Below are positions 128-36,709 of a DNA stretch of 46,355 nt, piece after piece (within the stretch, counting starts at the first letter, position 1; each line of letters opens with the position of its first letter). The position numbers and the translations under genes are program-made. The notes under the pieces are model-generated. The model worked only from the letters and a program-made list of their open reading frames with translations, was not told the DNA's origin and did not search any database. Origin of the DNA: a virus. The DNA lies in the IMG/VR virus record IMGVR_UViG_3300037245_000763, positions 1 to 46,355 of that record; one strand, written 5' to 3'.

Positions 128-1230
128 TAGGGTGAATAGGGTGCTGGTACTTGCCCAAGATTTGGCTTAAAGTGGGCCATTCTCCTGGTGATTGCTCCCA
201 TCGTGTTGACTGCGCCATGAATTTTCCCTTCCGGCGTAACGTGATTGAGCCACGCTTCTTTGCCTTCGGCTATCTGGCCGATACGTTTGTTTAAAGTTAA
301 GAACTCTGTAAGCGGTTTCGCTTCCTCATAATCGAGCGCACCTAAAATATCATCATCGACCTTAGGCTTGCCGGTCTTTGTGGTGAACTCCACCGGCTCC
401 CATCCGTACTTCTTAATGAGCATTTCAGATATGTGATCATGTGATGCAGGGTTGAAGTCTGTCAGTTCAATCTTGGTCATGGTTGCACCGGCAGTGTAAT
501 GCAGTCGCGCATTGTCGCGCTTAGGGGTGAAGGATTTGCCCTTCTTATAAAATGGTGGGAATGTCTCAATCATTTGGGTGCGGAGTTCTTCGCGCTTATT
601 GAGCAGCTTAATGTAAAGCAGTTGCGCTTTATCCTTATTGAAATGAATACCATTGGCCGTCTGTCTGTGAATGATCTTCTCTACCTCATGCTCAATATCC
701 TTAGCCTGGGCAGAACAGTTCTTGCTATCAATCTTATCAAGCAGGGCCAGCGTCACGCTGACATCTTGCTCACAGTAGTCGGACATTGCAGGAGTCCATT
801 CCTGCCAATCAGTAGTCTTTGCGTAATCTCCCTTTAGAATACCCAAACGAAAGCCCCAGGCTTCCAGCTTGTGCGTTCCGGCCAACCGGTAGGACATAAA
901 ACATTTCGGCAGTCGGCCCCTTTGGTATGCACCAAAATCTAAGTCTCTGATATTAGGCCACAGCAGACGCGACATAATCTTCGTGTCTGTAATTTTTCCG
1001 GTGTAAACAAACGCCGGATACATTATCTTAATGGCCGGTAAATCGAAGTCTATAATTGAGTGGCCGCACACATGGTCAGCCAGTTCAATCTTGCTCACAC
1101 CCACTGACACCGGCAAGTTGGCCTTGTCATATCGGGTGTGCTTATTCGTTTCAGTATCATAAATGTTGATGCAATGAATAACTTTAAGGTCAGGGAGAAG
1201 CCCATTTGTTTCTATATCAAAGACAAGCAT
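1..1230 (-). CDS. DNA polymerase, family A (T7 gp5-like), N-terminal 410 codons
   Basis: This is the first part of the replicative DNA polymerase. It continues in frame at 46228 and ends at 45641, giving 605 residues. The start ATG follows AAAGGAGAAGTTC. The N terminus has exonuclease motif I (LVFDIETNGLL), then ExoII-like HSIIDFDLPA and ExoIII DYCEQDVSVT near residue 150, so the 3'-5' proofreading domain looks intact. Polymerase motif A (GIDADGLEMACLGHFM) begins near residue 389. T7 gp5 has 704 residues. Roughly 64 of the missing residues fall between ExoIII and motif A, where T7 carries the thioredoxin-binding loop, so that loop is probably absent or reduced. The gene lies downstream of primase-helicase and small genes, as in the T7 replication cluster. 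Confidence 0.95.
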   Translation of the reverse strand, partial: MLVFDIETNGLLPDLKVIHCINIYDTETNKHTRYDKANLPVSVGVSKIELADHVCGHSIIDFDLPAIKIMYPAFVYTGKITDTKIMSRLLWPNIRDLDFGAYQRGRLPKCFMSYRLAGTHKLEAWGFRLGILKGDYAKTTDWQEWTPAMSDYCEQDVSVTLALLDKIDSKNCSAQAKDIEHEVEKIIHRQTANGIHFNKDKAQLLYIKLLNKREELRTQMIETFPPFYKKGKSFTPKRDNARLHYTAGATMTKIELTDFNPASHDHISEMLIKKYGWEPVEFTTKTGKPKVDDDILGALDYEEAKPLTEFLTLNKRIGQIAEGKEAWLNHVTPEGKIHGAVNTMGAITRRMAHFKPNLGQVPAPYSPYGPECRELFGPRPGWVQVGIDADGLEMACLGHFMSPFDEGEFV

Positions 1231-1246
1231 GAACTTCTCCTTTCGA

Positions 1247-1585
1247 TTATAATGGTTGACCCGGGTTTTCGCAGCCTAACTCGGCCACGCACACATCCCA
1301 AAGCGCCTTAAGGCTTTCACAGGTTAGCATTTGGTATGTGTAGTCGGTATTGTCCAAAATGAACCCAACACATAAACCGTCTTTGTTCTCCATCCACACT
1401 GACACGTCACCTCTCGGATCATCAATGGCTCCAAGAATTGTGAAGCCACGTTCTTTCGCTTGATGCAAGAAGCCAAGCGTCTGCGGATTGGTTTGCGTCC
1501 GGTAGGGATAGTCCTGAGCTACTGCAATGGTGCCGCCCAAGAGAAAAATACCAACAACGATTGTCGCTAAGAATTTTCTAAACAT
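1247..1585 (-). CDS. small exported protein
   Basis: The product has 112 residues. It opens with a clear signal peptide: a basic MFRK start, a hydrophobic stretch to about residue 20 and an AVA-Q cleavage-like site. The mature part is about 88 residues with three cysteines and no family I recognise. AAAGGTGGTG precedes the ATG. It sits just upstream of DNA polymerase and overlaps the preceding gene by 19 bases, so it is co-expressed with replication genes. Export suggests a role at the envelope, such as superinfection exclusion, but this is a guess. Confidence 0.75.
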   Translation of the reverse strand: MFRKFLATIVVGIFLLGGTIAVAQDYPYRTQTNPQTLGFLHQAKERGFTILGAIDDPRGDVSVWMENKDGLCVGFILDNTDYTYQMLTCESLKALWDVCVAELGCENPGQPL

Positions 1586-1965
1586 TTTTTACACCACCTT
1601 TGGGTTTGGATTTCAAGATACGGCTGGCCAATACGATCAGCTTCGATCGGATAGTCAGGGTAATTCGCATCCAGCGTAAAGCGCACCATTTTGGGTGCCT
1701 TTAACGGTAAGATTTTCCAGTATCCCTCTCCTAAAAAATGTAACTTTACTGCGCTCCACCAATCAGCCGGAACGTCAATCATGTCCAGCCTTTGTGAAAC
1801 AACGTAGCGTGACAGTTCAACCACAAGATGCCTTGACTGCTCGCTGAAATAAGACTCAATGCAGTATTCATCCGCAATCTTAGCTTCGTCCACTAAAGCC
1901 CTCGACATCATTAGCTTCAAGCGCATCCGTATTGTGTCGGTGTATAATTTATCGTTTAACATCAT
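1567..1965 (-). CDS. hypothetical protein
   Basis: The product has about 132 residues. I chose the start at 1965 because it follows GGTGGAAA and overlaps the end of the preceding gene; an open frame extends to 1986 without a ribosome site. The middle reads as a folded helical/beta domain rich in aromatic residues (DWWSAVKLHFLGEGYWKI). The C terminus ends in a CKKC pair. I see no recognisable family. Confidence 0.7.
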   Translation of the reverse strand: MMLNDKLYTDTIRMRLKLMMSRALVDEAKIADEYCIESYFSEQSRHLVVELSRYVVSQRLDMIDVPADWWSAVKLHFLGEGYWKILPLKAPKMVRFTLDANYPDYPIEADRIGQPYLEIQTQRWCKKCLENS

Positions 1966-2164
1966 TTTCCACCAGCACTTTCTCACACTCGGTCGTGTGC
2001 TTCGGGGTCTCGTCCGGGCGCGGAGTCATGTGCGCCTTGCACCGGGGGCAAACAACTACCCAACCATCAGAGTACGCCCAACCAGTGAACGGGCAGGGTG
2101 ATACGGTGACAGCTTCTTCGCCACATTCCGGACAACGTAAGATTAACTTTTTGCTTTTCGCCAT
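1949..2164 (-). CDS. small zinc-ribbon protein, Lar-like pattern
   Basis: The product has 71 residues with CPECG, CPF and CPRC knuckles spaced around a DGWVVVC strand. This resembles the zinc ribbon of Lar-type restriction-alleviation proteins and other small phage zinc ribbons. GGAAAGGGAGAATAATC precedes the ATG. An anti-restriction role is inference from the cysteine layout only; a structural zinc ribbon of unknown role is equally possible. Confidence 0.75.
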   Translation of the reverse strand: MAKSKKLILRCPECGEEAVTVSPCPFTGWAYSDGWVVVCPRCKAHMTPRPDETPKHTTECEKVLVENDVKR

Positions 2165-2166
2165 GA

Positions 2167-2379
2167 TTATTCTCCCTTTCCAAGTATATCTATCAAGGTA
2201 GAAAATTGTAGCACTATGGATAGAAGACTTTTTGCTTTCTTGTCTCCTTCGGTAGCCAGTTCTTGCAATGCTGCGATACCGCTTCGGGCGTTCAGAAATT
2301 TACTTATGTCTGCGCCGCCAGCCAGGGCAACGATATCGTCAAAGGCTGCAAGGTACTTTCCTTTAGCATAATCTGCCAT
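2167..2379 (-). CDS. hypothetical small helical protein
   Basis: The product has 70 residues and is predominantly helical and Ala/Leu-rich. The ATG overlaps the stop of the preceding gene (TAATG) and follows AAAGGGGAAGAACTA. I do not recognise the family. It sits in the run of small genes between primase-helicase and DNA polymerase. Confidence 0.7.
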   Translation of the reverse strand: MADYAKGKYLAAFDDIVALAGGADISKFLNARSGIAALQELATEGDKKAKSLLSIVLQFSTLIDILGKGE

Positions 2380-2579
2380 TAGTTCTTCCCCTTTCTGCGC
2401 TTAGTTTTCTGTTGGCCGACTCGCTCTTTTACCTTTAGCACTTTTTCTTTCGGCATGTTGAACGGGCATTTGCACAGGTTTATAAAGAGTGAAGGTGGAG
2501 AAGCGTAAACGCCGCATGTTAGGAACACTTTGTTTACCTTCGTACACCCTTCGCAGATGTATTCTATGTTCGATGTCAT
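2379..2579 (-). CDS. small cysteine-containing basic protein
   Basis: The product has 66 residues. I placed the start at 2579 because AAAGAGGAGATTGAGAGA lies directly upstream; the longer frame to 2588 would need a TTG start. It has CEGC, then CGVY and CKCPF, and a very basic C terminus (TKRRKGKN). The layout suggests a zinc-bound nucleic-acid-binding peptide, without a known family. It overlaps another open frame (2401-2697) for most of its length. Confidence 0.65.
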   Translation of the reverse strand: MTSNIEYICEGCTKVNKVFLTCGVYASPPSLFINLCKCPFNMPKEKVLKVKERVGQQKTKRRKGKN

Positions 2580-2697
2580 TTCTCTCAATCTCCTCTTTGA
2601 ATTTATCGATTAGTACTTTCACCGACATGGATGGAAAAGCCTTCAGGAATCCTTCCATCCACCCAATGACTTCATCCAGGTTAACCCCGGGCCGCAT
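2401..2697 (-). CDS. hypothetical protein with long out-of-frame overlap
   Basis: The product has 98 residues if it starts at the ATG at 2697, which follows CAGGAAGTACTTG. The first 40 or so residues look like a genuine amphipathic domain (VNLDEVIGWMEGFLKAFPSM). From about residue 40 the frame overlaps the 66-residue gene 2379-2579 in another frame and becomes basic and low in character. Either the two genes truly overlap for 179 bases, or this gene was truncated and reads through. The ATG lies inside the end of the zinc-finger gene 2681-2914. Confidence 0.5.
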   Translation of the reverse strand: MRPGVNLDEVIGWMEGFLKAFPSMSVKVLIDKFKEEIERNDIEHRIHLRRVYEGKQSVPNMRRLRFSTFTLYKPVQMPVQHAERKSAKGKRASRPTEN

Positions 2698-2914
2698 CAA
2701 GTACTTCCTGCCGGGATTTGGGCGCATGACCGAAGGTCGCATCCTGGCAACCCTGGCACATCCCTGAGATGTGAAACTCTTTGACGGAAAGAGCGTCATT
2801 AAAATCCAGTGATGTCACAGCACCACTACACATCGGACACCGGCCCTGATCGATTAGATCACCGGCAGTCTCCGAACCTTTACCAATCACCATTGCTCTC
2901 GCTAACGGATTCAT
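2681..2914 (-). CDS. small zinc-finger protein
   Basis: The product has 77 residues with CPMC near residue 26 and CQGC near residue 55, a two-knuckle zinc motif separated by a segment with EFHISG. I chose the start at 2914 because AAAGGGAGAGGAAAATA precedes it; the upstream extension to 3064 overlaps primase-helicase and has no support. The pattern is common among small phage proteins of unknown role. It overlaps the end of primase-helicase by 35 bases, which suggests coupled translation. Confidence 0.75.
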   Translation of the reverse strand: MNPLARAMVIGKGSETAGDLIDQGRCPMCSGAVTSLDFNDALSVKEFHISGMCQGCQDATFGHAPKSRQEVLDAARG

Positions 2915-4526
2915 TATTTTCCTCTCCCTTTGGTATTTCGTTAAGGTCAGTTGGCAACAACCTTCCGCTGAACGGTGAGTATTCCAGAATGTCAGCAACG
3001 CCGGTATCGCCGGTTCTCCGCATCTTAAGTAAGCGAAGACGAGAATAGTTCTTGGATGCTTCATCTTGCTGATCCCTTTCCATTGCTATAACGGCATCGG
3101 ATAGCTGCTCTAAAGATGCGCTACCTCTCAAGTCAGTGAGACTCACTGCGCCACCTTCATTGTATCCCTTGCCGCTACCCATCTTTCTTTTCAGATGGAC
3201 GATTGCTTGAATGCCACACCCGGTCTCCTCAACCAGCGAGCGCAGCTTGGTCATTAGTCGATCGATCATCAATCTTTCGTTGTCTCCTAAGCCAAAATCA
3301 AGAGCAGAAACCACGATAGAGATATGATCAAGAAGGATAAAGGAACAACCCAGGCCGACAACCATGTATCTAATTTTTGCCAAAAGATTTTCGATCTGAG
3401 TGGAACCAAAATGGTTATAGAAGAAGTATCGACCATTTCCCACAGTCTCGTCATACGCTTGTCTAAGCTCGTCTTCATCAACGTCTCTCCTTGTCTGCAT
3501 CGGCATCTTCAAATGGATACCAATGTGTCTCTCTGCGGCAATCTTAACGCTCTCCTCAAGCGCCATGATGCCAACAGTTTGGTTATGCTTCATCGCTAAA
3601 TCATAAATTATTTCATGGACAGCGGTTGATTTGCCTATGCCGGAGCCAGCCGTCCACACCCACAATTCACCCTTTACAATCCCTTGTGTTCGTTGGGATA
3701 ACTTCGGGTAGGGCATCTCAAAGCCTTTTTCCGGAACCTTCATGATCGTATCCCACAATGATTTGCCGGATATGATACCGTCAGGCCGCCATGTTTCCGC
3801 ATCATAAATGCACTGCATGACACGCTTAGGGTCTTTGAGAAACAACTCGTTAGCGTCCTTGTACCCATCGTATTTCATTATCTTGGTCTTGCCTGGGGGC
3901 AATAAGGCAGCAACCTTCTCCCCGGCTTCTTTCCCGGCTTCATCATCGTCAAACGCCAGGATAACTTCATCAAAACTGCAGACAAACTCAAGGTTCTTTT
4001 TGATTGCCTTCGGTGCGCTCTGAGTTCCAGAAGGGATGCTGACCACCGGCCATTTGTTTCCCTGGACTTGGCTGATAGTCATACAGTCTATCTCGCCTTC
4101 CGTGACGATTAGTTTTTTGCCAAAGGATTTCCAAAGGTGTTGGCCCCATAAACCAGCTTGCCTGAAGGAACCAATCCACGTAAAGTCTTTGGACGGGAAG
4201 CGAAGATGTTGTCCAACAAGATTCCTCTTTGAATCAAAATAACAAGCAACTTGAACAGGGGTGCCGGACAATTTGGAAACACGGTAATCAAACTTTTTAC
4301 AAGTCGTAACGCTAATTCCACGTTTGTTAAGGGGCTGGTAGGAACCATCGAGAAAAGCGACAGTTGCTTTGGGATTGTCTTCTTCTGTCCACTGTGGCTT
4401 CTCTCCGGTATCGCCTTTGGTTGACTTTTCGCAGGAGAAGCAGAAGGTACTGTTGTCTTCATAGACTGCAAGTGCGTCTGAACTGCCGCAGTCGGGGCAG
4501 CTTCGGTGTTCGATGAAAGTTCCCAT
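2880..4526 (-). CDS. bifunctional DNA primase-helicase (T7 gp4-like)
   Basis: The product has 548 residues, near the T7 gp4 length of 566. An N-terminal zinc-binding domain uses C10, C13, C29 and C32. A TOPRIM primase core follows (LIVTEGEID, then ILAFDDDEAG). The C-terminal RecA-like helicase has Walker A (GSGIGKST, about residue 295) and Walker B (FILLDHIS). In this family it unwinds the fork and makes primers for the phage polymerase. The start at 4526 follows GGAGAGGAGAAAAC. That ribosome site lies inside the open frame of the upstream HNH gene, whose frame runs 418 bases into this one. Confidence 0.96.
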   Translation of the reverse strand: MGTFIEHRSCPDCGSSDALAVYEDNSTFCFSCEKSTKGDTGEKPQWTEEDNPKATVAFLDGSYQPLNKRGISVTTCKKFDYRVSKLSGTPVQVACYFDSKRNLVGQHLRFPSKDFTWIGSFRQAGLWGQHLWKSFGKKLIVTEGEIDCMTISQVQGNKWPVVSIPSGTQSAPKAIKKNLEFVCSFDEVILAFDDDEAGKEAGEKVAALLPPGKTKIMKYDGYKDANELFLKDPKRVMQCIYDAETWRPDGIISGKSLWDTIMKVPEKGFEMPYPKLSQRTQGIVKGELWVWTAGSGIGKSTAVHEIIYDLAMKHNQTVGIMALEESVKIAAERHIGIHLKMPMQTRRDVDEDELRQAYDETVGNGRYFFYNHFGSTQIENLLAKIRYMVVGLGCSFILLDHISIVVSALDFGLGDNERLMIDRLMTKLRSLVEETGCGIQAIVHLKRKMGSGKGYNEGGAVSLTDLRGSASLEQLSDAVIAMERDQQDEASKNYSRLRLLKMRRTGDTGVADILEYSPFSGRLLPTDLNEIPKGEENNESVSESNGDW

Positions 4527-4879
4527 GTTTTCTCCTCTCCTATGGAATGATGTAAGTGACTATGTGTCATTGGATGCAATGCTTCCAAATTATCTGCGCG
4601 GTTATTTAAAGAGTTACCATCGATATGATGCACATGATTTTTCTTAGGTATCGGGCCAACAAACGTCCGGTAAATCACAATGTGTAGCGCCCGACTGTAT
4701 TGCTTCCCGTTTTTATTGAATCGAACTTTCCGGTACTCAGTTAAGTGGTCGTTTGCAGGAGTACGCATACTGCATGTTCCAAGCCGTCTCAAAACCTTTT
4801 TAACCTTGCTGTAAACGTGGCCATACGGTGTAGCATAATAGCCAGGGAATCCCGGTACTTTTTTCATCACATTATCCAT
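4109..4879 (-). CDS. HNH homing endonuclease, frame extending into primase gene
   Basis: The open frame has 256 residues and starts after AAGGGGGTCTATCTG. Residues 1-25 hold a NUMOD4-like segment (PGYYATPYGHVYS). Residues about 75-115 hold the HNH nuclease core with HHIDGNSLNNRADNLEAL and a trailing THSHLHH. Free-standing HNH nucleases of this type usually end there. From residue 118 the frame overlaps primase-helicase in another frame for 139 codons, with low-complexity content. The functional endonuclease is probably the first 115-120 residues. It sits between a terminator (4902-4932) and gene 4, typical of an inserted homing gene. Confidence 0.85.
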   Translation of the reverse strand: MDNVMKKVPGFPGYYATPYGHVYSKVKKVLRRLGTCSMRTPANDHLTEYRKVRFNKNGKQYSRALHIVIYRTFVGPIPKKNHVHHIDGNSLNNRADNLEALHPMTHSHLHHSIGEEKTWELSSNTEAAPTAAVQTHLQSMKTTVPSASPAKSQPKAIPERSHSGQKKTIPKQLSLFSMVPTSPLTNVELALRLVKSLITVFPNCPAPLFKLLVILIQRGILLDNIFASRPKTLRGLVPSGKLVYGANTFGNPLAKN

Positions 4880-4901
4880 CAGATAGACCCCCTTAAAATA
4901 G

Positions 4902-4932
4902 AAAAAGCCCCCAAGCCGTTAGGCTCAGGGGC
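4902..4932 (-). terminator. rho-independent terminator upstream of the HNH gene
   Basis: Read on the minus strand, GCCCCTGAGCC and GGCTTGGGGGC pair around a TAAC loop, with a G-U pair allowed, and are followed by five T. It lies between the HTH gene and the HNH gene, so it would reduce read-through into the helicase unless bypassed. Confidence 0.8.
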
Positions 4933-4940
4933 AATTAAAA

Positions 4941-5183
4941 TTAACTACACCATTTGTCTTGCCCTTTGGGCATCTTGGTGGAGTATCTTCCGTAACGAGT
5001 ACCATTCACAGCGACACGCATTTCCGTCCAGATTCTCATTCCTCTGGCACGAAGCGTATCGATAATCACCGGCAGCCGAAAGAGTGAGTACTCTTGGATG
5101 GCTTCCAGTTGTGTGATGGATCGGCCCGATTTCAAATGAGCCATTACTGCTGCGGTTTTCGTTTTGTAAAGATTATGTAGCAT
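4941..5183 (-). CDS. winged-helix / HTH_39-like DNA-binding protein
   Basis: The product has 80 residues. The pattern AVMAHLKSGRSITQLEAIQEYSLFRLPVIIDTLRARG followed by a beta-hairpin with NGTRYGRYS matches the small helix-turn-helix family found in many phages (HTH_39 type); the match is from memory of the pattern. The start at 5183 follows CAGGAGAGGACTATTAAC. It is the only clear DNA-binding regulator candidate I see, but nothing shows it acts as a repressor. A terminator follows it. Confidence 0.8.
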   Translation of the reverse strand: MLHNLYKTKTAAVMAHLKSGRSITQLEAIQEYSLFRLPVIIDTLRARGMRIWTEMRVAVNGTRYGRYSTKMPKGQDKWCS

Positions 5184-5184
5184 G

Positions 5185-5454
5185 TTAATAGTCCTCTCCT
5201 GGGGCAGCCTTTTTCTTCCGGCTTCCCTGTTTGAATTTTGTTTGGCGCAAGTCCAGGCCAAGCTGAACCTCTCCTTCCATTCGGATTACCTCATACGCCA
5301 AAGCCAAGATATAATCCTTTATCCAGTTGATCTGTGGGATCGTTCCCATTGTCCTCTGGATAGTGTGCATAATGCGGTGAGCATCTCCTCGGATACCCAC
5401 CGTAATCTCAGGTTTATAGGAAATGTGATGCTTCTGCAACTTTGGATCGGCCAT
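5185..5454 (-). CDS. hypothetical protein downstream of SSB
   Basis: The product has 89 residues. The ATG overlaps the SSB stop (TAATG), so translation is probably coupled. The N-terminal half is basic, the middle is a helix (WIKDYILALAYEVIRMEGEV) and the C terminus has a lysine cluster (SRKKKAAPG). T7 has endonuclease I (gp3) next to SSB, but I see no gp3 motifs here, so function is unknown. Confidence 0.7.
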   Translation of the reverse strand: MADPKLQKHHISYKPEITVGIRGDAHRIMHTIQRTMGTIPQINWIKDYILALAYEVIRMEGEVQLGLDLRQTKFKQGSRKKKAAPGEDY

Positions 5455-6122
5455 TAGAAATCGCCGTCTCCATCAGCCGGTTTTTCCTCGTCACCCGGCT
5501 CGAAGTCTTCTCCACCGGCCAGTGCTTCACCGTCAGTGTCAAAGCCCATGCCAGCGGCATCTGCACCATACTCGACAAGCTCCCTGATCTGAACAGCACC
5601 GATGTACAGGGTGACTCCGATGTTCTTGATCTTGGTTTTCTTGCCGTCAACAACAGCTTCCTGATCCATCACATACGGTTTGATCGTGGTTTTGATGCAA
5701 AGGATGGAGCCATTCCCAATGTTGATCCGGCGTTTTAACTGGTTGCCAGCGGCATCAAAGAGAACGGGTTTCAGGTTGATGGTCTCTCCGTCTTTTTCAA
5801 ACGAAGCGTTGGATTTGAAATGGACATAAATTTTTCCGGTTTCTTCCTTATCGTCATTCAAATCGTCACCATAAGGATACTGTTTGAAGATGCGCTCAAT
5901 CTGAGCCGGTTTCAGGCCGTCAATGACATCATCGTACTTCTCTTGCGTGAGTTGATCGATGATCTTTTTGAGTTCCATCTTCTCAAATTCTTCCGGCAGC
6001 CATAGCAGCTTGGTGGTGTACACGCCCTTCTTGTTGAAGGTGGTATCCGGTGTCACAAGATGCGGCCATTTGGCTTCTCCTGGTTTGGTGACCAGTTGCG
6101 GAAACTTAGATTTTTTAGCCAT
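5454..6122 (-). CDS. single-stranded DNA-binding protein (T7 gp2.5-like)
   Basis: The product has 222 residues from the start at 6122, which follows AAGGGGAGTTAAACAA; the longer frame to 6185 lacks a ribosome site. Its length, beta-rich OB-fold body and very acidic tail ending in an aromatic residue (DGDGDF) match gp2.5-type proteins, where the tail contacts polymerase and helicase. Position upstream of primase-helicase fits. It overlaps the next gene by one TAATG. Confidence 0.85.
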   Translation of the reverse strand: MAKKSKFPQLVTKPGEAKWPHLVTPDTTFNKKGVYTTKLLWLPEEFEKMELKKIIDQLTQEKYDDVIDGLKPAQIERIFKQYPYGDDLNDDKEETGKIYVHFKSNASFEKDGETINLKPVLFDAAGNQLKRRINIGNGSILCIKTTIKPYVMDQEAVVDGKKTKIKNIGVTLYIGAVQIRELVEYGADAAGMGFDTDGEALAGGEDFEPGDEEKPADGDGDF

Positions 6123-6126
6123 TTGT

Positions 6127-6294
6127 TTAACTCCCCTTCTCTGTTTGTTTGTGGTGATAGGAACGCAGCACTTCAAGAGGGTCAATCCCTACTTTTGAGC
6201 AGCGTTCAAGAAATCTTGGAGACGGTGGGAATAAGCTCCAAGCCCTTTTCCAGTATAATCTTAACATCTGTCGGACAAAATTAAATTCATGCAT
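6127..6294 (-). CDS. small hypothetical protein upstream of SSB
   Basis: The product has 55 basic, aromatic residues (LYWKRAWSLFPPSPRFLERC). I placed the start at 6294 because AAGGAGAGGAAAAAGA precedes it. No family is recognised. Its stop lies five bases before the SSB start. Confidence 0.65.
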   Translation of the reverse strand: MHEFNFVRQMLRLYWKRAWSLFPPSPRFLERCSKVGIDPLEVLRSYHHKQTEKGS

Positions 6295-6543
6295 TCTTTT
6301 TCCTCTCCTTGTTTGGTACAGGGCAAGCCTAAGAGAGCAGGGAGTTCCCATTGGGTCAACCCCCGGGCTTACAGAATCCACCGTCTCGGCGATGTAATCC
6401 GGATCAGTCTATATTCTGCTATCTCTAATGTCTCCATCCACACTTCCCGGCATCTGTGGTTTCAAAGCGAACCGTCAAAGTAAGCTCCACCGTTATCATA
6501 TCTGTGCGAAGTGTTTAGCTTGTGACTTTCCCTGTGGTTTTAA
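6295..6543 (-). other. non-coding gap between tRNA array and SSB operon
   Basis: I see no convincing gene. Two tiny frames of 24 and 22 residues overlap on the minus strand around 6380-6500 but have no ribosome site. No terminator-like hairpin with a T run is evident. Confidence 0.5.
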
Positions 6544-6617
6544 TGGTGTTGGATAGGGGATTTGAACCCCTGTCTTCCAGCGTGAAAGGCTGGCATCCTA
6601 CATTAGACGAATCCAAC
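6544..6617 (-). tRNA. tRNA-Glu (TTC)
   Basis: The 74-nt minus-strand cloverleaf has a 7-bp acceptor stem GTTGGAT/ATCCAAC, an anticodon stem CCAGC/GCTGG with loop CTTTCAC, and a T arm AGGGG-TTCAAAT-CCCCT. CCA is encoded. The GTCTA of the D arm is typical of tRNA-Glu. Confidence 0.92.
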
Positions 6618-6621
6618 AAGG

Positions 6622-6699
6622 TGGCAGCCCGTAGGGGATTTGAACCCCTGATCTCTGGCTTGACAAGCCAGCGCTGTAACCTGACTCAGCTAACGAGCT
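6622..6699 (-). tRNA. tRNA-Asp (GTC)
   Basis: The 78-nt minus-strand cloverleaf has an acceptor stem AGCTCGT/ACGGGCT, a D stem GCTG/CAGC, an anticodon stem CTGGC/GCCAG with loop TTGTCAA, and a T arm AGGGG-TTCAAAT-CCCCT. Discriminator G and CCA are encoded. It lies four bases upstream of tRNA-Glu. Confidence 0.9.
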
Positions 6700-6702
6700 A
6701 AA

Positions 6703-6774
6703 TGGCACCCAGGCCATGAGCTACATCCAGTCGATGTTTGGCTGGTAAACTCACGGTTGCAACTGACCCGGGAT
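6703..6774 (-). ncRNA. degenerate tRNA-like element with encoded CCA
   Basis: This fills a tRNA-sized gap between tRNA-Asp and the next tRNA-like element. Possible acceptor strands ATCCCGG and CCTGGGT pair at six of seven positions, followed by G and CCA. A 4-bp stem GTTT/AAAC with a 7-nt loop (ACCAGCC) sits where an anticodon arm would be, but U33 and a purine at 37 are missing. The T arm is poor. It could be a pseudo-tRNA or no tRNA at all. Confidence 0.35.
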
Positions 6775-6779
6775 TTGAT

Positions 6780-6862
6780 TGGTGGACGTGGGTGGAGTCG
6801 AACCACCGTCCGGCGCAGTGTCTCATATAGAGCCTTACTCGCCGTCTAAACCGTTCACGCCC
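6780..6862 (-). ncRNA. non-cloverleaf tRNA-like element (83 nt) ending in ACCA
   Basis: Read on the minus strand, a complete 7-bp acceptor stem GGGCGTG/CACGTCC (one G-U) is followed by A and CCA. The T arm is perfect, GGTGG-TTCGACT-CCACC. Between them is no D arm and no 5-bp/7-nt anticodon arm. Instead there is one long hairpin, GGCG-AGT against ACT-G-CGCC, capped by CTC/GAG around TATAT. The 3' part resembles a tmRNA tail (GGACG-N-GG-TTCGA), but the 5' partner strand lies only 83 nt away. Confidence 0.55.
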
Positions 6863-6867
6863 GTTAT

Positions 6868-7001
6868 TGGTCTGAGAGCGACCGGACTCGAACCGGCATT
6901 TCGTACCCATATTGCCCCTCTTTCGCATCAGTTTAGGACTTACAGCCCTACCAGCACTGGCCTTGTGATCACTGTTGATGCAATACCCAGGCTACGCTCC
7001 C
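6868..7001 (-). ncRNA. oversized tRNA-like element with GUA anticodon-like arm
   Basis: An acceptor stem GGGAGCG/CGCTCTC and a T arm GCCGG-TTCGAGT-CCGGT are clear on the minus strand, with CCA two bases past the discriminator. Inside is a 5-bp stem with 7-nt loop CTGTAAG (6934-6950), which has U33, GUA and A37 as in tRNA-Tyr. It is carried on an extra helix GCATCA/TGATGC (6976-6981 with 6925-6930). Total length is about 134 nt, roughly 45-50 nt too long for a tRNA. It may be a modified tRNA-Tyr, a degenerate gene or a decoy. Confidence 0.5.
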
Positions 7002-7011
7002 ACATTATCGG

Positions 7012-7060
7012 TGGGTGGCATCGGGAATCGAACCCAAGCAGACCACTGCCATGCCACCCA
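7012..7060 (-). ncRNA. mini tRNA-like element: acceptor stem, short hairpin, T arm
   Basis: The 49-nt element starts three bases after the RNA polymerase stop codon. An 8-bp stem GGGTGGCA/TGCCACCC, extended by one T-A, stacks on a T arm TTGGG-TTCGATT-CCCGA. In place of the D and anticodon arms is a 4-bp hairpin GCAG-TGGT-CTGC. The T-stem G-U pair exists only on the minus strand, which supports this direction. No normal tRNA can be drawn here. Confidence 0.55.
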
Positions 7061-7063
7061 TAA

Positions 7064-9619
7064 TTATCTACAAAAATATGTTGAGGTTAATATTGCGTTA
7101 AAGTCAATGCTACCAAGCTTCGGCCTGTCAATCTCAAGAGTTTCTGTGCAGTCCGGCGCTATGCCCTGAAGGAACTTATAAAGAAAGTCCTTCTCCTCAT
7201 ACATCATCACGAATTGCTCACGGACAACCTTATGTAAGTCCGGTAAGTCAGCGGCATGTGTACCGAAAGAGTCATGCACCGTTGTCAGAGCGCCACCGTG
7301 GTCTTTCCAACCCAAGGCTATAAATAGCAAATGGCTGGCATCCATAGAATGAATGAAATTAGGAGCGATACTTTGCTCTGCTTTTTTCACCTGGATACCG
7401 CGCTCAGGAGCTTCGTGACTAAGGTTCAAACGAACTCGGTCACCCTTCTCCTTGTTTGACTCCCGGCGTATATCGACACTTAACCAGTAGGTGTCCACTC
7501 GCTGAGTACGGGTCTGCCAGTAGGTTTGCTCAATCGGTAAACCGATCGGTGACATCCATTTGACAGCCTTTCCAGCTTCGGCCAGCGTCTTAGCACATGC
7601 CTGAACATATTGCATCCCCTCGTCAGCCTTCTTGACAACCTCTCGCATAGCTTCGTTGTTCTTGCCAGCGATGTACTGCGCCATTTTGTAATTATCTTCC
7701 GGCGCATCTTCAAGGTAGCGTGGAGAGTGCTTTTTGTCCAGGTCGTTCAACTCTTTGAGAACCTGATCGCGCATCCCGGGAAGGGTTGCACCATACAGCT
7801 TGGTCATGACGTTCCTTTTGGTTATTGTCCTGGTAACGTGATCGCGCCAAGCAATCGCCATTGGGTCAGTGTCAAACTTAAGACGCGACTCCACTTCATC
7901 GGCCACGGCCTGATAAACGTCATCAGGCATCGGCTTATCAATCATTCCTACCTGTGCGCCGCCCTCACCGTCATGTAAGACGGCAGACCAGTGCTGCAAG
8001 CCGGAACACGTTTGATCGATGTGGCATATCAGGCGAGACTCATGCTTCGGGTCTCTGAGATACGCCGCATAATCAAAGCAGAAGGCTAAGAACTGAAACG
8101 GTTTGTCAGCGTTGCCCCAAAATTCCATTGAAGTTTCGCCATAAGGAACCGAGTCAACCAACTGGATTAATTCAGCATGGTCAATAATCCAATTCACACG
8201 CTCATGCTCTGAAAGCTTGTCCTCTCCATACACATTAGCGCCATGAATCATGAACTCTTTGACCGCATCACCTTCAATGCGTTTACCTTCGGCATACTCA
8301 AGGCAACCCTTTGCAGGATCGTCTCCTTGCGGAGTCAACACTGGCGTACTCATGCAGAAGGTGCGTCCTCTCCAATCAAGATTGACGGGGAAGTATATCG
8401 TGCTGTATTGCTCAAACATTTTTGCTATCCGAATTTCCTCAAGCAAACGTGTTCGTTTTGACTTCTCGTTCCAATAGGTTTGATATCTTTTGTGAGCATC
8501 AATTTTCCAGGCTTTCACAACGTCAGGATGCTCCACGGAAAATTCTTCGTAAGATAATACGGCCTGTTGCTCCCAAGGCTTTGGCAAAAGGGCGAGCTTC
8601 GGTAATTTGCCGTCAGGCAGCCCTGCCTTGCCGGACATTTTGAGTTCTTCCAGCACGTCCACAACACGCTTATTTATATGGTACTTGGTCTTTTGAAGTG
8701 AGTTGACCGCTTCATAAACCAGCGGATCAATACGGCCAGCGTTCTGTTTCAGCCATTCCTGATCCACGTTCCGAATAAGGCGGCAGCTTCGGTAGCCTTT
8801 GGCAAACTTCTGGCTAACGTATCCACCCTTCCAAGGATTGACCCAATCAACAGGCGGCACAACCATTGGTTTTAAGATAGGTACTAAGATGCTACAAAAT
8901 TCATGGTTCTTATCAAGCCATTTCGTTGTCCACTCGGTCGGCTTCAGTGTAATACCTTTCAGTTGAACCTTCCGGCCTAACCGTGGCACGTACAGCTTGT
9001 GCGGCTTCGGGAACTCGTCCAGGTAAAATAAGCCGCCGGTATTCAGAAAGAAATCGATCAGCGTTTTGCCAATCAATAATTTTTCCTGTTTGTTCCAGTT
9101 GGTGTCAACCATTCCTTTTGTGGCAAACATTTTCTTACGGGCATGAGTTAGAACCTTGTGCCTATGCCCCGGGTGATCCGTTTGAAGTGACCGCATGACA
9201 ACTGCGCGATACGCTTTGAAGTCTCTCTTAAATCTCTGATCATCCTTGTGGACTCGCACATCATCGGCCAGCTTAATGCAAATGGTCTGCATGGTCTGAT
9301 CGCCCAGGTAATGATTGAAGCAGTGACGGATAGTCAGCACTGCCAATTCGACAGGCCGGATGTCACCGTAAGCTGACCTTAGGAGCTTTGCAGACCGGCC
9401 CCCGGCTTTCGCCAGATCATCAGCTATCATTTTCTCCAAAGGCGGCACATGCTCCATTAAAAGCTTCATTTCGGGCGTGAACAAGAGCATGTCCTTGTCA
9501 CCCGTCTCGGCTTTGGCCAAATCTTTGTAATACCTGACCACAGCTTCTTTGATAGCTCCTGTCTCAAAGCTATCCTCATGCTCTATCAAAGTATCGATAC
9601 TTAAGTCTGTATCAGGCAT
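7064..9619 (-). CDS. phage single-subunit RNA polymerase (T7 gp1-like)
   Basis: The product has 851 residues (T7: 883). The catalytic core is complete: the LDWRGRTF segment, the motif A aspartate in IDQTCSGLQHWS, the motif B lysine and tyrosine in TKRNVMTKLYG, and the second aspartate in TVHDSFGTHA. A specificity-loop region precedes APNFIHSMDASHL. The enzyme transcribes the later phage genes. The end reads ILTSTYFCR; many relatives end in an FA-type foot, so the last two residues are unusual. AAAGGAGAACTTC precedes the start, and a copy of the phage-specific 23-mer lies 43 bases upstream. Confidence 0.97.
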   Translation of the reverse strand: MPDTDLSIDTLIEHEDSFETGAIKEAVVRYYKDLAKAETGDKDMLLFTPEMKLLMEHVPPLEKMIADDLAKAGGRSAKLLRSAYGDIRPVELAVLTIRHCFNHYLGDQTMQTICIKLADDVRVHKDDQRFKRDFKAYRAVVMRSLQTDHPGHRHKVLTHARKKMFATKGMVDTNWNKQEKLLIGKTLIDFFLNTGGLFYLDEFPKPHKLYVPRLGRKVQLKGITLKPTEWTTKWLDKNHEFCSILVPILKPMVVPPVDWVNPWKGGYVSQKFAKGYRSCRLIRNVDQEWLKQNAGRIDPLVYEAVNSLQKTKYHINKRVVDVLEELKMSGKAGLPDGKLPKLALLPKPWEQQAVLSYEEFSVEHPDVVKAWKIDAHKRYQTYWNEKSKRTRLLEEIRIAKMFEQYSTIYFPVNLDWRGRTFCMSTPVLTPQGDDPAKGCLEYAEGKRIEGDAVKEFMIHGANVYGEDKLSEHERVNWIIDHAELIQLVDSVPYGETSMEFWGNADKPFQFLAFCFDYAAYLRDPKHESRLICHIDQTCSGLQHWSAVLHDGEGGAQVGMIDKPMPDDVYQAVADEVESRLKFDTDPMAIAWRDHVTRTITKRNVMTKLYGATLPGMRDQVLKELNDLDKKHSPRYLEDAPEDNYKMAQYIAGKNNEAMREVVKKADEGMQYVQACAKTLAEAGKAVKWMSPIGLPIEQTYWQTRTQRVDTYWLSVDIRRESNKEKGDRVRLNLSHEAPERGIQVKKAEQSIAPNFIHSMDASHLLFIALGWKDHGGALTTVHDSFGTHAADLPDLHKVVREQFVMMYEEKDFLYKFLQGIAPDCTETLEIDRPKLGSIDFNAILTSTYFCR

Positions 9620-9740: not shown

Positions 9741-10736
9741 TCAGGGTTTGACCCTGGATCGATACGCTTTGACCATCTCGGCTTCATCCACATGCACGTA
9801 CCTTTCGGTCTCGGTTATCGATGCGTGACCAAGCAACTTCTGGATGTATTTCAAGGACATACCAGCAGCCAACAGGCGTGTCGCATAAGTGTGTCGCAAA
9901 CAATGAGGTGTTAATTTTGCCGTTATGGCAGTAGGAAGGGCCAATTTAAACATTTTGCTGATGTTATTTGACCGTAACTGCTGATTTTTACTGTTAACAA
10001 AGCAAGTTTCGGTCTCCCTATCCCACAGATATACCATTAAAACGCTCACTGCTTCACTGTACGGAACAACACGGCCAGTTTTAGCCTTGGTGATGTCAGT
10101 GGTCAGCCGGACAACTTTGCTCTCAATGTCGATCATCTCAGGGCGCATTTTGAGTATTTCACCAATCCGCATCCCGGTATCCAGGGCCACCATTAAGATA
10201 TCCTTTAAAGTGCCTTCGCAGTTCTCGAACAGCAAACGCTCCTGGTCAGCGCTCAGGGTGTTGACGATCGATCGCGTCTTTGGCTCGTCTGCCATATCAA
10301 AGTGCGGTAACGTGTCCAATAAACCGTCCTTCTTGCACTCGTTCAGGACAGTCTTGAGGTTCCCCATGTAGCGATTCACCGTGACAGCAGATCGACCAAC
10401 ATTGAGTAACGCTCTGATTTTCTTGAGCAAAGGTCTGTCAATATCACAGACATTTATGTTGCCAACCAGCTTGATGATCTGGCGTACACGCTCGGCTGAC
10501 TGCTCGCCAGCTTCGGATTCGTTCCAGCGTGACCAGTAGGTATCTTCAAGGGCTTCTGACAATAGGCATCCGGGCAGCGTAGGCGCATACATAATTTCAA
10601 GTATCGCGTCTCTGGCAGCATCTTCAACTTTCAGCGCCAGCTTCTTTTTGGTGACCCCGGTGCTTTTGTTCACTCGTTTTCCCTTCACTGTAAAATCCAT
10701 GTAAAGGTTCTTCGAGCCTTTTCGCTTGTAAATCAT
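9741..10736 (-). CDS. int: tyrosine-family integrase
   Basis: The product has 331 residues. The catalytic domain shows the full active-site set: Arg in [11 protein letters not shown], a lysine in the TKAKTGR turn, H278-x-x-R281 in [12 protein letters not shown]304 in LLGHAS and the nucleophile Y313 in ETERYVH. The N-terminal region is a SAM-like core-binding domain. It would integrate the phage into a host chromosome, which T7 cannot do. It lies just upstream of the RNA polymerase gene, as in integrase-bearing T7-like phages of marine bacteria. A loxP-shaped inverted repeat lies 35 bases upstream of the start. I find no repressor gene. Confidence 0.95.
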
Positions 10737-17182: not shown

Positions 17183-17258
17183 TGGAGCCGGTGGGAGGAA
17201 TCGAACCCCCGACATGCGGCTTACAAGGCTGCTGCTCTGCCAACTGAGCTACACCGGC
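17183..17258 (-). tRNA. tRNA-Thr (TGT)
   Basis: The 76-nt minus-strand sequence has acceptor GCCGGTG/CACCGGC, D stem GCTC/GAGC, anticodon loop CTTGTAA and T arm GGGGG-TTCGATT-CCTCC, with CCA encoded. The anticodon stem GCAGC/GCCGC has one A-C mismatch. It stands alone beside the non-coding genome-end region. Integrating phages often carry tRNA sequence as an attachment site, so that role is possible. Confidence 0.88.
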
Positions 17259-18393: not shown

Positions 18394-20133
18394 TCATCTC
18401 CGGTGGTTATCACCCCCTCGCCCCCGGCTCTCGTTGAAGCTTGAGCCAAGCTGTGCTTTCATAAATGATTTCAACTCCTTATCTACTTCTCGCTTCTCCC
18501 ACTGTTTCTTGCTCCGAATCGCATCTTGTGCTAATGCGTCCAACCAGTATCGTACCATAATTGCTAAGGCATCGAGACGATCATCATGCTTCAGTGCGCC
18601 TTTCTCTCGCGTGAGCCGTGTCATTTGATAGAACAAGGAACGGTTAAGGTCTTCATCCACCACTTCAATATCCTTATCGATCACGCTTCGGTCAAAGATA
18701 AGTCGGTGCTGATTGAGTGGTGGCTCGAGTGTATCGATAATACGAAGCTCCTTCTGGGTTTGGTGGCGTACTTCTTCAATAGAACAAGGGTGCCACTTTT
18801 GTAGAATGGGTTGAAATAGCTTTGTGAACATCCCATCACCAAAGTTGGATTCGATGATGATATGATTTATGTCGTGTCGTTTCGCTATCTTAGCTAAGAA
18901 GTTTAAAGTGGTGTCATCATAGCCGCCGGTCAAGCCCCCGACTTCGGGAACCCAAATGTTACCATGCAGCATGTAGCCGATAGCGTAAGCAGTCTCATCT
19001 GTACCCCGGCCAGCAGGATCGATTGCCATTGCCTTGCCGGTGTATTCAGTCCACTGCTTCTCATCGAAGTACATTGGGCCATACCATTTGTCACCCGTAA
19101 AGCCAACATTCCGAATATCTCCAAGTAGTTGCTGGCCACCGGAGCCATACGAAATGGCAACCGGAGCCTTGTCTCGGTGTACGGAAGTCACAATGATATC
19201 AGCAGTCTTCAAGGGATACTTTAAAGCATCACTCAAAGAAGTATCCAACATGAACTGCAGAGCGAAGGCAGATTTGCCATACGCTGCTTCCCTGTCAGAT
19301 AGGTCAGCACCATCGAACCGTTTTGGATCGGTAGGCTCACCAGTGATCGCTGACGTGGTTTTCAGGGTGTTTGCTATGGTTGGGCATAGCTGACCCCTAT
19401 AAATATCATCCTGCATCACCTGAGGGAATCTGGCTGGCCAAATACGTCTCTCGTAGCCACGCTCCACCAGCTTATTGTAAATGGACTCCTCGGTTTGCGG
19501 AGTTCCCAGGTAAGTGATCTGCCCGGTGTCCGGCATCATAATGGCTTCAAACTCCATTGCCGTCTTCAGCAGCTTCTCGCGCAAGTCCTGAGTCGCTGAG
19601 TTATTTGGAACCTCAACATCATCGGCCACAACTTCATCGGCTCGAGAGCCAGCTAACTGGCTGAATATACCCAGGGATTTACATGAGGGTGCATGGGCGG
19701 CACTGGCCGGTCGCACATCAAAGGAAGTCTTGGATGATCGATCGCCAAGCCCCTTGTCAGGCATTAAGTACTGTAATATCGGGAACTCCTGAATGATCTT
19801 TAAAGTAAAGGTTGTGAAATCATCAGACCGCATCTTGGATGCCGACACCACAAGGATTCGGTAATTGCATTCCTTATACCAGCACCAAGCGCAGTAGACT
19901 GAGGTAATCCATGATTTGCCAACGCCACGGAATGCCTGGATAATCTTACGTCTCCTGGCCTTTTCCAGCGGCTTCTGGCTTCGGTGACTCCAATCTTGAA
20001 GGTAGTCAGCGATTGCGTATTGTACTTTGGTGGGCGGCGGCAAATGTAATTGATTCCAGCTATATGCAAGGAACTTCTTAAAGTCAGCCTTTAAGTCTGC
20101 TTCGTACCACCCATTATAAATTGCTCTCTCCAT
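18394..20133 (-). CDS. terminase large subunit (T7 gp19-like)
   Basis: The product has 579 residues (T7: 586). The ATPase domain has Walker A FRGVGKSW (residues 68-75), close to FRGIGKSF of T7. The C-terminal nuclease half has candidate metal-binding acidic residues in MAIDPAGRGTDETA, IIIESNFGDG and KHDDRLDALA. It packages DNA and cuts concatemers. It is the last large gene, as in T7. An ATP-dependent motor acting at the portal is established for the family. Confidence 0.95.
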   Translation of the reverse strand: MERAIYNGWYEADLKADFKKFLAYSWNQLHLPPPTKVQYAIADYLQDWSHRSQKPLEKARRRKIIQAFRGVGKSWITSVYCAWCWYKECNYRILVVSASKMRSDDFTTFTLKIIQEFPILQYLMPDKGLGDRSSKTSFDVRPASAAHAPSCKSLGIFSQLAGSRADEVVADDVEVPNNSATQDLREKLLKTAMEFEAIMMPDTGQITYLGTPQTEESIYNKLVERGYERRIWPARFPQVMQDDIYRGQLCPTIANTLKTTSAITGEPTDPKRFDGADLSDREAAYGKSAFALQFMLDTSLSDALKYPLKTADIIVTSVHRDKAPVAISYGSGGQQLLGDIRNVGFTGDKWYGPMYFDEKQWTEYTGKAMAIDPAGRGTDETAYAIGYMLHGNIWVPEVGGLTGGYDDTTLNFLAKIAKRHDINHIIIESNFGDGMFTKLFQPILQKWHPCSIEEVRHQTQKELRIIDTLEPPLNQHRLIFDRSVIDKDIEVVDEDLNRSLFYQMTRLTREKGALKHDDRLDALAIMVRYWLDALAQDAIRSKKQWEKREVDKELKSFMKAQLGSSFNESRGRGGDNHRR

Positions 20134-35737: not shown

Positions 35738-36709
35738 TTAAGCAGTGTCGAGCATGGTGGCGCAAGATTCGGGGCGCAGATAACCGTGACCCATTGCGTA
35801 TTTCGCAATCAGCAACGTACCCTGCCGTCTTCCGTCATAAATACTTTCCATTCCCAGGTCAAGCAATTTGACCGTGGCAACAGCGTCAACGCCGAAGGCA
35901 AGACCATCAATCAGAAGTGAATTGATTGCATGGAAGTCTTCGCCGGAATAATCTGCTTGGGGCAGCATCGGGGTTCCGATCAGGTCGATCCCACCAATCC
36001 GGATAATTTTACCGTCAGCATAAGAACCCTGACCGTCATAATCCCGGTTGATTGCGGAGAAACCACTGGACTGAACGGTTCTCAGAAGGTTGTTATAAAC
36101 TGCCGGTTTGATAACCAGGAAGCGTTCCTTCGGCACGAACTTATTGTCGAAGTTTTCGGCGGTCTCAAAGATTGCATCTTCCCATGCGGTAAACATGGTG
36201 GCTGCGGTTCCATGATCGAAATTCGCATCCGTGGTCTGATACCCACCGTCCAGGGTGGAGACAGTTGCCGAAGCAGCCGCGCCCAACATGGCTTCACGCA
36301 TTACGTGATTGTCAAAGGTTTCGGCCAGCTTGCGGCCCTGCATGTCGGTGTACTGTGAACGTACATCAAAATGCGTCATGATTTCATCCAAGTTGTCGAT
36401 GAAGATATGGCTGATCAGAAGTCGATCGATCAGGATAACTCTTTCGCCGTGAAGGATGTCCTGGCCCAGAATTTCTGCGCCGGGGGTATGATACTCAGCG
36501 TCAGGCATACGGCCAATGACGGGGAACTGAGCGCTCTTACCGGATTTAATCGTGCGAACATTGTGCTTGTCCAGCATGACAGTGTGTTTCTCGAAAGCGG
36601 TGACAACTTCGCCAGCATAAACTTTAAGCTGAAGTTCTCTTTCCTCGGTCATATTCGCCGGGGTAGAGTCGTTGTCAGAGCCTAACCAAGTGTTATTAGC
36701 ATCGGACAT
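35738..36709 (-). CDS. major capsid protein (T7 gp10A-like)
   Basis: The product has 323 residues (T7 gp10A: 345). The pattern EVVTAFEKHTVMLDKHNVRTIKSGKSAQFP and the following ADAEYHTPG-like turn are typical of this HK97-fold capsid family. The C-terminal YAMGHGYLRPESC strand is also conserved. No slippery site or downstream extension like gp10B is visible before the terminator. AAAGGAGAACCTAATT precedes the start, and a 306-base leader lies upstream. Confidence 0.95.
   Translation of the reverse strand: MSDANNTWLGSDNDSTPANMTEERELQLKVYAGEVVTAFEKHTVMLDKHNVRTIKSGKSAQFPVIGRMPDAEYHTPGAEILGQDILHGERVILIDRLLISHIFIDNLDEIMTHFDVRSQYTDMQGRKLAETFDNHVMREAMLGAAASATVSTLDGGYQTTDANFDHGTAATMFTAWEDAIFETAENFDNKFVPKERFLVIKPAVYNNLLRTVQSSGFSAINRDYDGQGSYADGKIIRIGGIDLIGTPMLPQADYSGEDFHAINSLLIDGLAFGVDAVATVKLLDLGMESIYDGRRQGTLLIAKYAMGHGYLRPESCATMLDTA

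Follow-up and report, generated by a model that had tools for sequence, protein, structure and literature searches.

Directly after its T7-like RNA polymerase gene, the virus contig IMGVR_UViG_3300037245_000763 (IMG/VR; 46,355 bases, analysed in full and referred to here as the window) carries three minus-strand shells that keep the ends of a tRNA and have no cloverleaf. Two of the three are recurring viral RNA types: one belongs to a kind that is known but rare and has a tested relative, and the other is apparently undescribed. We favour, with some reservation, the view that the array makes tRNA-mimic RNAs and not decayed tRNAs.

The array and its genomic setting

The phage, which carries an integrase, is probably temperate. 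The features discussed here are as follows.

2880-4526, minus strand: primase-helicase
6544-6617, minus strand: canonical tRNA-Glu (UUC) (ARAGORN; Rfam 63.3 bits)
6622-6699, minus strand: canonical tRNA-Asp (GUC) (ARAGORN; Rfam 68.7 bits)
6703-6774, minus strand: spacer proposed as a fourth element, without a T arm; not supported
6780-6862, minus strand: predicted TLD-only tmRNA (mini-tmRNA), 83 nt (Rfam RF00023, recurrence, P2 covariation)
6868-7001, minus strand: tRNA-like shell with enlarged centre, 134 nt (shell scan, constrained fold)
7014-7058, minus strand: predicted mini-tRNA without anticodon arm, 45 nt (shell scan, fold, family covariation)
7064-9619, minus strand: T7-like single-subunit RNA polymerase, 851 aa (PHROG 414, E 2.6e-187)
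9741-10736, minus strand: integrase (PHROG 1, E 5.8e-59)
18394-20133, minus strand: terminase
35738-36709, minus strand: head protein
38263-39834, minus strand: head-tail adaptor/portal

The closest isolate proteins, from Roseobacter and Pelagibacter phages, are distant, with about 30% identity for the polymerase and about 50% for the terminase. The RNA polymerase as query found no relative in IMG/VR or in genome contigs. TerL and primase queries each found a close relative (L291, 83%, and L354, 91%, respectively), the contigs of which end before the array region, and no relative extending over the array was found. Promoter and terminator scans around the array stayed near chance level. A single tRNA-Thr (UGU) was called by ARAGORN at 17183-17258, remote from the array.

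A first-pass annotation, made from the letters of the window, had described three elements with full acceptor stems and T arms after the polymerase gene. Our shell scan, which demands a fully paired 7-bp acceptor and a 5-bp T arm with a TTCRANY loop, confirms them at 7014-7058, 6874-7001 and 6784-6862, each with an acceptor paired at 7/7 positions, a T stem at 5/5 and a TTCGA loop. Over the whole contig the scan returned five sites, namely the three shells and two canonical tRNAs, so that only canonical tRNAs were found beyond the array; the canonical tRNA-Glu falls below its thresholds. The same scan gave no match in 20 dinucleotide-preserving shuffles of the whole contig. The polymerase stop codon lies 4 nt before base 7059, so close that the first shell begins 4 nt past it, and ARAGORN places two canonical tRNAs, tRNA-Asp and tRNA-Glu, after the array; that two such tRNAs follow had been proposed. 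The earlier description of intact ends around rebuilt centres is correct; the observation is partly confirmed, and its interpretation is partly supported.

The 83-nt element has the architecture of a mini-tmRNA

Rfam model RF00023 matches 6780-6862 with 52.5 bits (gathering threshold 47; E 1.5e-19), the match running over model positions 1-374 with about 290 internal positions absent. The acceptor (GGGCGUG, 6862-6856, against CACGUCC, 6790-6784) includes a G3:U70 pair and leads into the D-loop AACGGUUUAGAC at 6855-6844, which fits GG..UU.GAC and has no D stem. P2 takes the form of a closed 32-nt hairpin (6843-6812), which occupies the site where a full tmRNA has its P2, pseudoknots and tag frame; a tag reading frame is absent, with just 32 nt separating the D-loop from GGAC (6811-6808). 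The T arm follows at 6807-6791 (GGAC-GGUGG-UUCGACU-CCACC), then A73 at 6783 and CCA at 6782-6780. This D-loop is a tmRNA signature, as is the GGAC that precedes the T arm, and G3:U70, A73 and CCA together form the alanine identity set of tmRNA. The signatures, the identity set and a P2 helix with neither tag frame nor pseudoknots are the features by which a TLD-only tmRNA is recognised, and 6780-6862 has all of them. The fold itself is only moderately better than that of shuffled sequences (z -1.96). Judged from its sequence, the element is very probably a mini-tmRNA, that is, the tRNA-like domain of tmRNA.

Two details of the first-pass annotation bear on this element. Its argument that the G-U pairs fit a minus-strand RNA agrees with G3:U70 here and G2:U71 in 6868-7001. 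Its claim that two elements encode CCA stands for 6780-6862, where CCA comes right after the discriminator, and fails for a second one: in 6868-7001 CCA is shifted by two bases (A-GA-CCA), and the 3' end of 7012-7060 reads C-ACC.

Two papers that cite Mao et al. 2009 (PMC4131195, PMC11915505) describe a TLD-only tmRNA of Mycobacterium phage DS6A. In E. coli, a similar RNA is reported to be a strong inhibitor of tmRNA whether or not it can be charged, perhaps because it titrates SmpB. DS6A is the only phage discussed as having such an RNA in the literature searched, and a 2025 tmRNA database holds just nine standard-form genes without a tag frame. By its description in those papers, the DS6A RNA resembles the 83-mer in being phage-encoded, in comprising little beyond the tRNA-like domain of tmRNA and in having no tag frame. 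The two differ, again by description, in that our phage belongs to a different, T7-like group and places its RNA inside a tRNA array, and in the closure of P2 as a hairpin, a trait common to about 24 distinct viral elements. Full-length phage and bacterial tmRNAs (RF00023) share with the 83-mer the acceptor with G3:U70, the D-loop motif, the T arm and A73-CCA, whereas the 83-mer lacks tag frame and pseudoknots and measures 83 nt. The CDS-less tmRNAs of mitochondria and plastids, the latter of ~65 bp, likewise have no tag frame, but they are organellar and, in mitochondria, mostly permuted (PMC11915505).

Mini-tmRNAs recur in viral contigs

IMG/VR pattern scans followed by a structural filter that required G3:U70, supplemented with loci from among the matches listed in a wider scan for 45-mers, yielded 24 distinct mini-tmRNAs of the same architecture in viral contigs, the 83-mer included. 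When the G3:U70 requirement was dropped, 25 of 28 candidates still carried the pair; the exceptions are L009, L074 and L202, the last of which is apparently the L184 RNA in a shifted register. The outer five pairs of P2 are formed in 101 of 120 cases across the 24 elements, against a shuffled mean of 63, and 0 of 2000 shuffles reach 101. Acceptors are paired at 140/140 positions (105 when shuffled), acceptor pairing being a selection criterion. Matching of 5' halves to their own 3' halves gave 30 matches, compared with 3.6 when halves were swapped among loci. Many of the hairpins share one kinked layout, in which a purine-rich internal loop on the 5' side (UAAG or GAAAG, for example) separates the outer stem from a short inner one that is capped by a small loop.

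The same pattern and filter applied to 84,980 bacterial and archaeal species genomes returned two mini-tmRNAs only, one in contig L331 of Cellulosimicrobium cellulans and one in contig L334 of a Mycobacterium sp. MAG. Genes near the one in L331 match phage-type glycosyltransferase families (PHROG), and the one in L334 has no recognisable PHROG neighbours. ARAGORN reports full-length tmRNAs at L006:2976-3318 and L087:10221-10616, but their tags are implausible and their 3' end is that of a mini-tmRNA; other tmRNA calls in phages may conceal mini-tmRNAs in this way. A 91-nt family that resembled mini-tmRNAs (L026, L033, L035, L123, L132, L134, L140 and L143, with a shorter variant in L049, L138 and L142) was set aside as probable coding DNA because its middle, by eye, reads as an acidic low-complexity protein.

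A family of 45-nt mini-tRNAs

The element closest to the polymerase gene pairs GGUGGCA (7058-7052) with UGCCACC (7020-7014), an eighth acceptor pair being possible at 7059:7013. It has no anticodon arm: between the acceptor and the T arm (GGG-UUCGAUU-CCC, 7035-7023) there is a single 5-bp hairpin with a UGGU loop (GGCAG-UGGU-CUGCU, 7050-7037). The segment 7011-7060 folds with z -3.52 relative to shuffles, 0 of 200 of which are as stable. UGGU matches G18-G19 of a D-loop, the part that docks on the T loop, and the 45-mer could therefore form an elbow.

BLAST with the 45-mer gave weak, full-length matches (82% similar) to unannotated elements in Erwinia Loessnervirus phages, and the Erwinia copies led to further 45-mers in Klebsiella phage 05F01, Citrobacter phage Tr1 and Aeromonas phage phiA050; all these copies in isolate phages are unannotated or misannotated. 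Three more, in L162, L179 and L180, came from an IMG/VR scan for UGGU plus a T arm in which only acceptor pairing was then tested, and their 5-bp hairpins had thus not been selected for. Looser cases are L166/L167 and L196/L246. A wider scan under strict structural rules produced no further clear 45-mers among the matches listed, and the family is at least of this size, spanning Chaseviridae and Stephanstirmvirinae phages as well as metagenomic contigs.

Covariation was counted on hand-set segments because MAFFT misaligned the 45-mers at their ends. On these, 34 of 35 hairpin positions pair across seven distinct stems (20.3 when shuffled, a level of 34 being reached in 2 of 2000), with double changes at all five positions. 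The acceptor is paired at 56/56, which for the IMG/VR members was a selection criterion. Among the Erwinia phages the 45-mer is conserved at an identity of 0.94 against 0.58 for its flanks, and it sits in noncoding DNA, with the annotated genes hundreds of bases away. Most copies lack an encoded CCA. It is very probable that the 45-mer belongs to a conserved family. Its origin is pointed to by the T-arm half of the Klebsiella copy, which is 90% identical to phage tRNA-His genes; compared with the tRNA-His of enterobacterial phages, the 45-mer is only 45 nt long, lacks the anticodon arm and has its D arm reduced to a 5-bp UGGU hairpin.

Rfam gives no tRNA match to 7014-7058 at gathering. The best sub-threshold matches to 7012-7060, at 20-21 bits, are mascRNA/menRNA (RF01684) and tRNA-Sec (RF01852), which share an acceptor, a T arm and a reduced centre with the 45-mer; the 45-mer differs in scoring below both gathering cut-offs, and mascRNA is a eukaryotic lncRNA product. 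No description of the 45-nt type was found in the literature searched, coverage of which is incomplete, and the family is apparently undescribed.

The 134-nt shell and the spacer

The third shell pairs GGGAGCG (7001-6995) with CGCUCUC (6880-6874). Positions 8-9 are UA, the D start is GCCUGGGUA-like, and the T arm occupies 6897-6881. With acceptor and T arm fixed, its centre folds to a long helix bearing a Tyr-like hairpin (UAGGG-CUGUAAG-UCCUA), much as the first-pass annotation had drawn it, with a branched arm and a GUA loop; the hairpin sits inside what is a possible branched arm. The element as a whole shows no excess stability over shuffles (z -0.34), no homolog was found, and neither ARAGORN nor RF00005 matches a cloverleaf in it. 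A group I intron was considered for its approximately 56 nt of extra sequence and rejected, as Rfam reports no Intron_gpI match. Shells of ~275 nt in L386-L389, whose carriers are relatives of the contig's primase carriers, were likewise rejected as parallels, because they resemble tRNA-Leu genes interrupted by a group I intron, which Rfam matches in L386. The 134-nt shell may be a decayed tRNA or a tRNA with an insertion; it probably belongs to the same set as the other two, and its centre is without independent support. The fourth element proposed at 6703-6774 is not supported: it lacks a T arm, and its fold does not stand out from shuffles (z -1.45).

Other shells in viral contigs

L289 (IMGVR_UViG_3300033076_001145, 208,634 bp) carries nine tRNA-Leu-like shells of 87-154 nt on its minus strand, from about 271 to 9303, with near-constant ends (AGTCAGGTGGCGGAATTGGTAGACGC...ACAGGTTCGAATCCTGTCCTGACT) and unrelated centres. 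The 5' ends are 81% and the 3' ends 93% identical, against 50% for the upstream flanks, and the centres, at 46%, are at the level of shuffled centres (45%); by a simple test, the anticodon arm is missing in eight of the nine. Such constant ends with unrelated centres support the notion that phages can keep tRNA ends while swapping middles. Similar shells occur in L247, L278 and L060, and L060:12531-13023 is a GOLLD RNA (185 bits); this viral contig is rich in tRNAs and carries a full tmRNA as well.

By eye, L162:345-978 (IMGVR_UViG_3300009488_000019) is an array with a 45-mer and a tRNA-Tyr, as well as possible long shells of 285 nt (GTCGGTG...CACCGGC) and 183 nt (GGGTGCA...TGCACCC), which could be due to chance or contain introns; Rfam finds no intron in this segment. 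Four tRNA-like genes of ~116 nt (L208:4998-5113, L231:1616-1728, L214:3166-3280 and L262:2318-2435) have differing acceptors and a similar middle insert, and are missed by ARAGORN. A 147-nt shell with encoded CCA (CGGAACG...CGTTCCG-ACCA) lies at L371:3986-4132, shortly after a primase that is 48% identical to that of the array-bearing phage.

Discussion

Trans-translation is the tagging and degradation of proteins made from broken mRNAs. We propose that the 83-mer would be trimmed by RNase P, charged with alanine and bound by EF-Tu and SmpB, and would then rival the host's tmRNA in binding SmpB and stalled ribosomes, such that host trans-translation would be damped during infection. Inhibition of trans-translation is the best reading of this element from our analysis, and we hold it as marginally the more probable outcome. 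For the 45-mer we envisage an anticodon-less mini-tRNA that selection would have retained in several unrelated phages and that would most likely occupy a host protein binding tRNA ends or elbows; this decoy function is put forward tentatively. Alternatively, the 45-mer may act behind the polymerase mRNA as a signal for RNase P/CCA processing.

Decay of tRNAs and of a tmRNA by internal deletion, with ends persisting by chance and no function, would be the simplest route to odd centres between intact ends, and the unremarkable fold and lack of homologs of the 134-mer, as well as the tRNA-His-like half of the Klebsiella 45-mer, are in keeping with it. Yet two of the architectures recur in unrelated phages with compensatory changes, the Erwinia 45-mers are conserved while their flanks have diverged, and the tmRNA identity bases are retained in nearly all mini-tmRNAs. 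Decay is accordingly improbable for the array as a whole and unlikely for 6780-6862 and 7014-7058; the earlier preference for mimics or decoys over decay is upheld for these two, and decay is still possible for 6868-7001.

The shells could instead act as RNase P/RNase Z cut sites, parting the polymerase mRNA from whatever is transcribed downstream or shielding its 3' end. An acceptor plus a T arm is the minimal RNase P substrate, the first shell begins just past the polymerase stop codon and short spacers separate the others. Such punctuation would leave the tmRNA D-loop, G3:U70 and the P2 hairpin unexplained, and would not suit the Erwinia 45-mer in its noncoding surroundings; we give it little weight.

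A decoy role against anticodon nucleases or other defences that target tRNAs, suggested in the first-pass annotation, would be in line with the view that phage tRNAs answer tRNA-cleaving defences (PMC10264068). It speaks against the suggestion that the 83-mer and the 45-mer have no anticodon arm; at most the Tyr-like GUA hairpin of the 134-mer might give an anticodon nuclease a plausible place to cut. For the 45-mer, enzymes acting on the acceptor end may be targets. Overall we consider such decoys unlikely, and SmpB and trans-translation are likelier targets than anticodon nucleases because 6780-6862 corresponds to the tRNA-like domain of tmRNA, which the first-pass annotation had missed. Finally, it is highly improbable that the 83-mer is the core of an integrase attachment site derived from the tmRNA gene of a host. 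An integrase is encoded by the phage, and phages often integrate at tmRNA genes (PMC11915505), but such copies normally carry the 3' part of the gene only, the 83-mer also has the 5' acceptor strand, the D-loop and a closed P2, all paired, and the polymerase gene lies between integrase and array.

More speculatively, phages may hold a wide and largely unannotated repertoire of tRNA shells as dedicated RNA effectors, in which mini-tmRNAs, as a common class, would jam trans-translation, 45-mers, as a new one, would bind another host tRNA protein and the present array would be one cassette. Current tRNA finders miss both mini-tmRNAs and 45-mers, or report a mini-tmRNA as a full-length one whose tag is implausible. 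The 45-nt family provides a tRNA mimic of minimal size and conserved fold, the partner protein of which can be fished out, and the mini-tmRNA is short enough for direct testing. The existence of about 24 distinct viral mini-tmRNAs suggests that the blocking of ribosome rescue may be a common phage strategy.
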